A DNA stretch of 45,555 nucleotides, taken from contig JARYLI010000013.1 of the NCBI GenBank assembly GCA_029907715.1, positions 1 through 45,555 on the forward strand, written 5' to 3'. A program made the position numbers and the translations under genes. The notes under the pieces were generated by a model. It saw nothing but the letters and a program-made list of their open reading frames with translations. It was not told where the DNA came from and made no database searches. Source of the stretch: Methanothrix sp. (GTDB lineage: Archaea > Halobacteriota > Methanosarcinia > Methanotrichales > Methanotrichaceae). Shown piece by piece: positions 12,062 through 15,493 of this stretch. Each line of letters opens with the position of its first letter. Position 1 is the first letter of the stretch.

Positions 12062-13483
12062 TCAACCCTTCAGCGTTTCAACATCTGGCCTGCCCCAGCC
12101 TGCAGTGAAAAAGCTGGCTGTGATGTATGCTGCGCCTCCGCAGATCAGCCCCACGAACACAGGATGGATGAGTGTGTTTCCATAAAAATTCCAGATGATA
12201 ATGGAGATGAACGATGCGAGAAGGCTTGCCACGAAGCCGGCTGAATTACCTCTGTGCCAGTAGAGCCCGAACACAAGCGGCACAAATACGCAGCATGCGA
12301 TCACCCCCATGCTTATCGAGACGAGTGGCACGATCTGTGATGGGATGCTTATCGCCGAGACCGCTGCTGTGATGATTATGACCACACCAACAAGCCGCGT
12401 AAGACGGAGGACTGTGCCGTCGGAGATGCCCGGCCGCAGGTAGTGCAGTATGTCTGATGTAAGCGAGGTTGTGGTGACAAGAACTATGGCGCTGATCGTC
12501 GACATCGCCGCAGATATCGCAGCAAGGAGAACAAGCGCATCAAACCCTGGTGGCAGGTACGTCCTTGCCAGGAACGGTACCAGACTGTCCGTATTTTTTA
12601 TGAATGTATCAAGCTGTTCTCCGCTGAGGACACCATATGCGAGAACGCCAAGCGAGAATATGCAGATGGAGTAAACCGCTATGGATACAGGCCCATAGAT
12701 GCCTGCGAAGCGCACCACCCTTCTGTCCCTGGCGGAGAATACCATTATCAGGAGATCGGGAAGCGCGAGAAGCCCGAGGCTTATGGAGAATGCCATACCG
12801 AGTGTCCTCTGCCATGGCAGATCGATGCCGTGCATCGAGGTCACGTATGCTGGAATTCTGGACCAGATCTCCAGGGTGCCAGAGATTGATAGCACGCTCC
12901 CGTAAAGCAGCACCGCACCGCCGAGCATGAGCACTCCCTGGAGGAAACCAATCCATATTATGGCGGGGAGACCGCCGATAGCATAATACATGGCCACTAT
13001 GAGGACTGTTAATATCAGCCCCTGAAGGTATGTGACACCTATCAGCCCCTGCAGGAGCGTGGCGCACCCCTTGAAGATGGGCACCAGGTAGACTGTATAC
13101 AGCACTAGCATTATGGCGGCCAGTAAGAACTTCCCCACAGGTGATCTGTACCGCCGCTCAAGAAGCTGTGGGACTGTCTTCGCGTCGTGCTCCTTCGCTG
13201 CCTCCCATATCCTTCCCGCCATCAGCCATGCGAGGCATGCGAATGCGACATGGAAGAATGCACAGAACACCACCCATGGCATCCCTGCGATGAGGCCATA
13301 TCCCCCTCCACCGAGGAAGGATGCCGCGCTGAAGTACGCTGCTGTGTATGCCACTCCAATGATGGCAGGCGTGGCGATGTTTCTGTCGGAGAGAACAAAG
13401 CCGGAGAACGTCTCCTGCCGGAGCCTCCAGGAGAGAAGGAGTATGACGGTCACGTAGGCCAGGAGCAGGATCTGGTTAATCAT
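12062..13483 (-). CDS. Solute:sodium symporter (SSS family)
   Basis: The 473-residue protein has about 13 membrane helices and belongs to the SSS family (relatives include PutP, PanF and ActP). The FSAASFLGGGGYGLIAGMPW segment (about 51-70) is the family's unwound first-helix region, and SAAMSTISAIVLVTTTSLTSDIL (about 325-347) carries the Na-binding serine/threonine pair. The substrate cannot be read from the sequence. Acetate or another carboxylate would suit an acetoclastic methanogen, but this is a guess. The ATG at 13483 has an SD (GAGGAGATAC) lying inside the tiny upstream gene and overlaps it by 8 bases, so translation is coupled. Confidence 0.88.
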   Translation of the reverse strand: MINQILLLAYVTVILLLSWRLRQETFSGFVLSDRNIATPAIIGVAYTAAYFSAASFLGGGGYGLIAGMPWVVFCAFFHVAFACLAWLMAGRIWEAAKEHDAKTVPQLLERRYRSPVGKFLLAAIMLVLYTVYLVPIFKGCATLLQGLIGVTYLQGLILTVLIVAMYYAIGGLPAIIWIGFLQGVLMLGGAVLLYGSVLSISGTLEIWSRIPAYVTSMHGIDLPWQRTLGMAFSISLGLLALPDLLIMVFSARDRRVVRFAGIYGPVSIAVYSICIFSLGVLAYGVLSGEQLDTFIKNTDSLVPFLARTYLPPGFDALVLLAAISAAMSTISAIVLVTTTSLTSDILHYLRPGISDGTVLRLTRLVGVVIIITAAVSAISIPSQIVPLVSISMGVIACCVFVPLVFGLYWHRGNSAGFVASLLASFISIIIWNFYGNTLIHPVFVGLICGGAAYITASFFTAGWGRPDVETLKG

Positions 13484-13571
13484 TGTATCTCCTCATGAGC
13501 AGAATGATGGTCACAGAGAGCATGAGCACGATCGAGATCAGGAGCGCCAGATAAGGAACAGGAACGCTCAT
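13476..13571 (-). CDS. 31-residue membrane peptide upstream of the symporter
   Basis: This ORF encodes 31 residues starting MSVPVPYLALLIS and ending LLMRRYND, essentially one membrane helix (about 6-26) with a short basic tail. Its stop overlaps the symporter start by 8 bases, and an SD-like GGGGTGATC lies 5 bases before its ATG. Single-helix partners encoded immediately ahead of SSS symporters are known in archaea, some annotated as symporter small accessory protein; I recall the name and have not checked it. The likely role is assembly or gating of the symporter. Gene order, coupling and a clean hydrophobic helix support a real protein. Confidence 0.75.
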   Translation of the reverse strand: MSVPVPYLALLISIVLMLSVTIILLMRRYND

Positions 13572-13627
13572 ACATGATCACCCCGATGGATCCTGCATTC
13601 AACATATGTTTGCAACACTGTTTGCAT
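13568..13627 (-). CDS. Possible 19-residue leader peptide
   Basis: A 20-codon ORF starts at an ATG 4 bases after a very strong SD (GGAGGAGGT, 13632-13640). It ends TGA inside the start of the 31-residue gene (ATGA overlap). The peptide (begins MQTVLQTYVECR) is not hydrophobic and I recognise no motif. The SD strength and exact coupling argue that it is translated, either as a regulatory leader or simply to load ribosomes for the accessory and symporter genes. Chance cannot be excluded for so short an ORF. Confidence 0.45.
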   Translation of the reverse strand: MQTVLQTYVECRIHRGDHV

Positions 13628-13898
13628 CACGACCTCCTCCACAAATCCAGTACTTTAGTGTATGTTTTTGTGCTTTGATGTCGCTTTGGTGTTAAAACCC
13701 TTTCCCTCAGGGGGTTGTGGACTTACCTCATTGATGGCATTCGACTCAGCGGGACACTCACCCGAAGCTCTCGCCTCCTGCTATCCGCTTAATGACGCAA
13801 ATATGTGACCCACAGGTAAAAGATCGTGGACTCGATTCACTGATGTAAACAAGAAATCCGCATTCGCTGGCATAAAAGATCCCGGATCTGCGAGGCCA

Positions 13899-14008
13899 CA
13901 TGCTGCTGATCTAAATGATTCAGGTACACAACCGGAGAGCGCTCGTCCGACTTGTTCACAGACTCAACCCGCATGCTGCTGATCTCAATGATTCAGGTAC
14001 ACAACCGG
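13899..14008 (+). repeat. Direct repeat of 37 bp, two copies
   Basis: The copies at 13899-13935 and 13972-14008 differ at one position (A or C in ATCTaAATG). Their spacing is 73 bases, about seven turns of the helix, so a protein bound to both would face the same side of the DNA. The second copy ends about 60 bases before the trpB2 TATA box. They may be activator or repressor sites for trpB2 or the divergent symporter operon, or a recent duplication. Confidence 0.7.
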
Positions 14009-14070
14009 GGGGTGAAGTGCCCGAGAAGAATGGACCAGGAATGACCCTCAGTTGCAACCATCCTCAAAAA

Positions 14071-14080
14071 GGTTATATAA
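14071..14080 (+). promoter_or_regulatory. trpB2 TATA box
   Basis: GGTTATATAA preceded by an A-rich BRE-like stretch (CTCAAAAA) sits 61-70 bases before the TTG start at 14141. Start of transcription is expected near 14100, which leaves a leader of about 40 bases with the SD CTGGAGGA. Confidence 0.6.
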
Positions 14081-14140
14081 TGTGATTTTAGGTTCTATGA
14101 TGAACATATTGTTTCTCTAATCCATCTGGAGGACTACCGA

Positions 14141-15493
14141 TTGAGATCCAAGATACTGCTAGATGAGGAGGATATCCCGAAGAGATGGTACAATGTGGCA
14201 GCTGATCTGCCCCGGCCGCTCGACCCGCCGCTGAACCCGGCGACGCATGAGCCTCTGAAGCCGGAGGACCTCGAGCCGATATTCCCGAAGTCCCTTATAA
14301 AGCAGGAGATGAGCACCGAACGCTGGATAGACATACCTGAGGAGGTGAGGGACGTCTACAGGCTCTGGCGTCCAACACCTCTGTACAGGGCTGTCAGGCT
14401 CGAGAAGGCCCTCAGGACTCCTGCCAGGATCTACTACAAGTACGAGGGTGTGAGCCCGGCAGGAAGCCACAAGCCGAACACTGCTGTTCCTCAGGCTTAC
14501 TACAACATGAAGGAGGGCATAGAGAGGATTGCAACAGAGACCGGTGCAGGACAGTGGGGCTCGGCGCTTGCGCTTGCCACATGCATCTTCGGCCTGAAAT
14601 GCACGATCTACATGGTCCGCTCAAGCTACGATCAGAAACCGTACCGGAGGAGCATCATGCGGGTCTGGGGCGCGGAGTGCTTCCCGAGCCCGAGCAACAG
14701 GACGAACGCAGGCAGGAGGATTCTGGAGCAGTTTCCGGACACGCCTGGCAGCCTGGGAATAGCGATATCAGAGGCCGTCGAGGACGCGGCCACGCATGAT
14801 GATACAAACTACGCCCTTGGATCTGTTCTGAATCATGTGCTTCTCCACCAGACAGTAGAGGGGCTTGAGGTCAAGAAGCAGTTCGAGCTCGTGGACGATT
14901 ACCCGGATGTGATATACGGCTGCTGCGGCGGTGGAAGCAACTTCCCAGGGGTGTGTTTCCCCTTCATCCCGGACAAGCTCAAGGACAGAAAGGAGCTCAG
15001 GCTTGTGGCATGCGAGCCGACTGCATGCCCGAGCCTCACCAAGGGTCTATACACATACGACTACGGGGATACTGCGCGCCTGACGCCTCTGCTCAAGATG
15101 TACACGCTCGGCCACGACTTCGTCCCGCCCGGGATACACGCCGGAGGGCTGAGGTACCACGGTGATGCGCCCCTGCTCTGCAACCTGGTGAACGCAGGAA
15201 TCATCGAGGCCCAGGCGTTCCACCAGCGCGAGGTCTTCGAGGCCGCGACGACCTTCGCGCGCACGGAGGGCATCGTGCCGGCGCCGGAGTCTGCGCATGC
15301 GATCAAGCCCGCGATCGACGAGGCGATCCGATGCAGGAAGACCGGCGAGACGAAGACTCTGCTCATAAACCTGAGTGGACATGGGCACTTCGATCTATCT
15401 GCGTACGATGCGTACAACGATGGGATCCTCGAGGATTATGAGTATCCAGAGGAGCTGGTGAGGCAATCGCTTGCCAGGCTGCCTAAGGTCTAG
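14141..15493 (+). CDS. trpB2: TrpB2-type tryptophan synthase beta chain
   Basis: The 450-residue PLP enzyme is of the longer TrpB2 class. It has the N-terminal extension with [10 protein letters not shown] (residues 15-24) and [12 protein letters not shown]. The PLP lysine is Lys111 in [15 protein letters not shown], and the phosphate-binding loop is [11 protein letters not shown]. TrpB2 makes tryptophan from indole and serine without firm TrpA coupling, or acts as an indole salvage or serine deaminase enzyme. No trpA or other trp gene is nearby, consistent with a standalone TrpB2. The start is TTG with the SD CTGGAGGA 7 bases upstream. The next gene overlaps its 3' end. Confidence 0.93.

Follow-up and report, generated by a model that had tools for sequence, protein, structure and literature searches.

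A conserved single-helix membrane peptide and a short leader frame overlap in series with an SSS-family symporter gene in Methanothrix and related methanogens

Directly 5' of an SSS-family symporter gene in Methanothrix lies the frame of a small membrane peptide that is a real protein family, absent from both Pfam and NCBIfam, and 5' of this again lies a leader ORF that, as judged from related loci, is real as a reading frame and not as a conserved sequence. The window, by which we mean the whole 45,555-nt stretch of DNA analysed, carries the three frames as a chain on its minus strand (Table 1). An earlier note on this DNA had described such an overlapping chain of leader, peptide and symporter, and sequence and translations confirm it: the leader's TGA and the peptide's ATG share the tetranucleotide ATGA, and the symporter start at 13483 falls inside the final 8 bases of the peptide ORF (ATGATTAA). 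This arrangement is far beyond chance. All three starts have an SD match, of 6 nt for the leader, where GGAGGT stands 4 nt 5' of the ATG, of 7 nt (GGTGATC) for the peptide and of 4 nt for the symporter; over both strands of the whole window, a match of at least 6 nt at a suitable distance is found for 29 of 1959 ATGs. At the leader SD, TGGAGGA is conserved in all four loci of the genus. The start of the leader ORF also contains two near-identical 12-nt tandem units (13607-13630).

Table 1. Features of the symporter locus, in positions of the window
Feature	Position	Strand	Remarks
SSS-family symporter	12062..13483	(-)	473 aa; PF00474 E 5.1e-43
Single-helix membrane peptide, 31 residues	13476..13571	(-)	P.PY...T...LRR family; includes TAA stop
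Overlap of peptide stop and symporter start	13476..13483	(-)	8 nt, ATGATTAA
SD-like GAGGAG of symporter	13489..13494	(-)	within peptide MRR codons
Leader ORF	13568..13627	(-)	19 codons + TGA; MQTVLQTYVECRIHRGDHV
SD GGTGATC of peptide	13576..13582	(-)	within leader ORF
SD GGAGGT of leader	13632..13637	(-)	
Palindrome GYRCATNAWAGYRCA	13650..13684	(-)	two imperfect copies; probable operator near transcription start
Probable archaeal promoter, BRE/TATA-like GGGAAAGGGTTTTAA	13692..13706	(-)	predicted; position conserved in both families

The reading that we favour, and which we consider reasonably probable on the strength of sequence comparison, is that of a three-cistron operon in which the leader would be a ribosome-loading cistron with an unimportant product, the peptide a stoichiometric stabilising subunit, the palindrome an operator, and an aryl acid or aromatic amino acid the substrate. 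The three cistrons would form one operon behind the conserved promoter and probable operator. Ribosomes would load at the strong leader SD, terminate at the leader stop that overlaps or abuts the peptide start, and reinitiate on the peptide, with the same handover then taking place from the peptide to the symporter start. The peptide would thus be made as a stoichiometric accessory subunit, binding and stabilising the symporter as MAP17 does SGLT2. The layout of coupled cistrons, in which stop and start overlap or abut, is found at both the leader/peptide and the peptide/symporter junctions. In archaea, termination-reinitiation has been shown at ATGA and TGATG, such pairs often encoding the subunits of a complex, and in E. 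coli 15 nt of the upstream gene is enough for it (PMC10666635). The present locus has ATGA/TGATG junctions like those of the archaeal pairs, but differs in that its first cistron is a leader without a conserved product. Since the symporter's SD is embedded in the codons that specify the peptide's basic end, this conserved end may serve protein and RNA alike; the peptide also has a good SD of its own, so that de novo initiation is possible.

The large ORF belongs to the SSS family by a wide margin (PF00474, 147.9 bits against a gathering score of 22.8), and in a profile scan it falls under the cut-offs of the named subfamilies. The pantothenate symporter model PanF (TIGR02119) is rejected at 143.5 bits, under its cut-off of 328.05, and the substrate is consequently left without a family assignment. 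Among 237 genomes belonging to the class, 51 encode an orthologue, the named records being Methanothrix/Methanosaeta, Methanolobus, Methanococcoides and Methanomethylovorans. Of the 51 loci gathered, 48 were examined, leaving out L012 (where the upstream DNA is 19 nt long), L064 (a near-duplicate of L015) and L083; the last was excluded from the peptide count and included in the stop counts and the codon-change comparison, and L090 (149 bases at a contig end) was also excluded. In L083 the peptide start codon is ATC and the remaining frame is intact, either an error or an unusual start. The evidence is comparative throughout, and related loci are not independent. The same genome encodes a paralogous symporter (G000:C4:48216-49580) with a small partner of its own (G000:C4:48007-48102), which belongs to NF045580.

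Of the 48 loci examined, 47 have a peptide of 28-33 residues just 5' of the orthologous symporter gene. The single miss, L032, is a decayed locus, its symporter bearing an internal TAA and its peptide frame being degenerate. The earlier note had proposed that stops or frameshifts be sought in the small frames of relatives, and the peptide frame is intact in the other 47. All 47 peptides show the pattern P.PY...T...LRR, with P4, P6, Y7 and T21 invariant, and the Kyte-Doolittle maximum of the peptide over 19 residues is 2.96. Nucleotide changes, too, are those of a coding frame: in all four clades tested they are biased toward the third position (12/16/66 by codon position, for example), and synonymous pair differences exceed non-synonymous ones at 60:22, 67:54, 38:22 and 42:32. 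Among 392 genomes of the phylum, a peptide match at E <1e-12 is found in 26, always directly 5' of the symporter; three further matches are weak and chance-like, and lie within open frames of 249-845 aa. No credible home in Pfam or NCBIfam was found for any of the 37 members scanned, the best E values being 0.0034 (Pfam) and 0.0037 (NCBIfam), with tails of cell-wall anchors and sorting signals as the targets.

The suggestion that the peptide may be a true subunit is well supported, as far as sequence can speak to it, by this exclusive co-occurrence with the symporter. The likeliest role for the peptide is that of an accessory subunit with one helix, much as MAP17 is for SGLT2. In 46 of 47 loci the end of the peptide frame runs into the symporter start, by 8 nt in 37, 4 nt in five and 11 nt in four; in the one remaining locus the stop falls 9 nt before the start, with no overlap. 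Transporters can be regulated by small proteins with a single helix (PMC10710835), which lends some weight to another reading, in which the peptide would regulate the symporter or act as an adaptor for its degradation, in the style of MgtR/MgtB, and would not be a constant subunit. The overlapping translation in all but one of the loci, however, fits a fixed stoichiometry better than separate control, and we regard the regulator as unlikely. That the peptide immediately precedes the N terminus of the symporter might also suggest a split-off N-terminal helix. Symporter residues 9-207, however, align to SGLT1 residues 37-232, so that the symporter appears to possess the first transporter helix already, and a split helix seems highly improbable.

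Several known systems bear comparison with a peptide that would act as an accessory subunit. ActP-YjcH (DUF485) and other small SSS partners are cases of a small membrane protein encoded beside an SSS symporter, the YjcH-type partners being larger, two-helix proteins. The present locus shares with ActP-YjcH the small membrane protein adjoining an SSS gene; no Pfam family matched our peptide usefully. Closer in form is NF045580 (symport_access, symporter small accessory protein, 33 positions), likewise a single helix of similar size that adjoins an SSS symporter, which accompanies the paralogous symporter here and in 54 of 60 relatives. As the family of our peptide it is rejected: at its 35-bit cut-off the model matches this genome twice, neither time at the peptide, the hhalign probability between the two profiles is 0.5%, and the invariant residues are different ones. 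Lacking any profile relation, these would be two small-helix families, unrelated by sequence, each with its own symporter. A literature search for the name of the NF045580 family gave no papers, and among the papers listed for small SSS partners none concerned a single-helix partner of an archaeal symporter. By role, the peptide is likened to MAP17 (PDZK1IP1), a single helix that packs on SGLT2 as an auxiliary subunit aiding stability (PMC10803289); like the peptide it accompanies a transporter of SSS fold, but it is a human protein without an overlapping operon. In Methanosarcina mazei, a related methanogen, the membrane small protein sORF_05 is encoded in a trimethylamine permease operon and has been proposed as a subunit (PMC11456600); the setting is similar and the transporter different.

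The leader ORF presents quite another picture of conservation. In 23 Methanosarcinaceae loci its frame contains a single stop, where the other two frames have 59 and 57; it is open in 22 of the 23, the exception stopping two codons early, and in all four loci of the genus (the window and three relatives). Stops in relatives, which the note had named as the refuting observation, are thus nearly missing from this frame as well. A strict test, which asks for an SD core, for a start codon lying 33-85 nt upstream and for termination at the junction, is passed by 35 of 47 loci where dinucleotide shuffles lead one to expect 1.43, and by none of 21 control starts, these being the loci of NF045580 in related genomes, which are in this respect unlike the peptide loci. 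By anatomy, a leader of 13-28 codons can be assigned in 44 of 47 loci, 41 of the 44 with an SD core, starting with TTG in 24, ATG in 17, CTG in two and GTG in one, and in 40 of the 44 the stop ends -2 to +4 nt from the peptide start. These anatomical starts were chosen by hand, so that frame counts by anatomy are circular; the independent tests are the stop counts, the shuffle test and the control starts. Leaders of close species are likewise not independent, and fall into 17 sequence clusters. For the window's own leader, support comes from the four genus loci together with this wider pattern.

The residues of the leader, on the other hand, drift. Synonymous to non-synonymous pair differences in the four clades run to 15:50, 19:104, 25:47 and 14:66, with no third-position bias, and this codon-change comparison gives no sign of purifying selection on the leader's amino acids. 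The comparison of ORF conservation that had been proposed thus separates the two small frames, the peptide being coding-like and the leader kept as a frame with changing residues. In three of 47 loci (L010, L011 and L074) the leader is absent, the palindrome and a GGAG standing directly before the peptide, so that the leader is dispensable; in two more, L009 and L073, it ends 15 nt early. One might therefore suppose that the leader is mere passage, a 5' region with an SD and chance ORFs in which the peptide alone is important, as its want of protein-level conservation and its absence from those three loci would allow. Against this stand the stop counts, the excess over shuffles and the failure of every control start, and we hold such a reading to be very improbable. 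With no sign of purifying selection on its residues, translation of the leader probably matters more than its product.

The note had also ventured that the leader could regulate translation of the transporter. As to form this is borne out by the conserved frame, the conserved junction with the peptide and, usually, the SD; as to content it is not, the amino acids not being conserved. A sensing uORF in the style of mgtQ/mgtB, whose stalling or release would answer a ligand or translation status and so gate peptide and symporter, has in its favour that the leader is the first cistron after the conserved palindrome and that it overlaps the peptide SD. Salmonella mgtQ promotes transporter translation (PMC8092293). 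A conserved diagnostic codon run, as in an amino-acid attenuator, was nevertheless sought by inspection across the 17 clusters, and no residue pattern or codon motif was found to be shared between genera. Nor did a conserved RNA fold mask the SD of the peptide in general (mean z +0.6, with an accessibility of 0.44 both in the loci and in shuffled sequences), although the four genus loci are less accessible, at 0.17-0.30 against 0.38-0.43. No Rfam element matched 13400-14300 at E up to 1. We judge a sensing uORF improbable; with the leader's amino acids not conserved, it is not the simplest reading, which is a coupling or ribosome-loading cistron. More tentatively, and with rather less confidence than we place in the operon as a whole, the leader may exemplify a content-free cistron, in which selection would act on a short frame, a start, a stop at the next start and usually an SD, the residues being free to drift. 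One ribosome would then make in turn a disposable peptide, an accessory helix and a transporter, delivering the subunit to the membrane just before its partner and in fixed ratio.

Upstream of the leader, a palindrome close in sequence to TGTACATNATAGTACA stands 3' of a TATA-like box in both families, within 13650-13706 in the window. It is weaker in this genome than in relatives, with 10 of 15 consensus positions, and its apparent conservation is inflated, since the best-matching window was taken for every locus. When 11 genomes were searched, there were 15 matches, five exact and ten with one mismatch; this operon holds all five exact matches and one of the ten, the other nine lying elsewhere. 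With every exact match at this operon, the palindrome is probably a local operator, one that would bind a transcription factor. A genome-wide regulon was considered and rejected, the exact matches in these 11 genomes being confined to this operon and a looser pattern scoring little differently from the same pattern read backwards. The TrpB-like neighbour prompted the thought of a TrpY-type TRP box, which remains a lead, because no other genus shares that adjacency. Two direct repeats of 40 nt, 95% identical and spaced by 73 (13896-13935 and 13969-14008), are found in the stretch that separates the symporter operon from the TrpB-like gene.

The neighbouring genes bear on the substrate. Divergently upstream of the symporter operon, iorA is found in 19 of 47 loci and in two families (in views of 286-3000 nt), two IorA proteins, one per family, scoring above the TIGR03336 cut-off. 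It is followed by iorB, with a PaaK-like ligase frame, truncated where the retrieved sequence stops, beyond iorB in Methanotrichaceae; examples of iorA-iorB divergent from the symporter are L037:3-2697, which also has the PaaK-like frame, and L059:62-2628. In this genus the divergent neighbour is the TrpB-like enzyme and not IorA, and in many loci other genes take the position of iorA. These divergent indolepyruvate oxidoreductase, PaaK-like and TrpB-like neighbours make aryl acids or aromatic amino acids the lead substrates, an assignment by gene context that we consider possible, if still short of probable. On the 3' side of the symporter, many Methanosarcinaceae loci carry a protein of 118 residues without a Pfam or NCBIfam match (as at L052:4556-4909).

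If the leader is read as above, it would be a clean natural case of an ORF conserved as an act of translation and not for its product, and the losses in L010, L011 and L074 would serve as built-in natural controls. The peptide, for its part, represents a protein family so far without annotation, and it likely completes a transporter of methanogens that live on acetate and methyl compounds, organisms that matter for the global methane cycle, and the genes around it suggest a testable route by which these archaea may take up aryl acids or aromatic amino acids.
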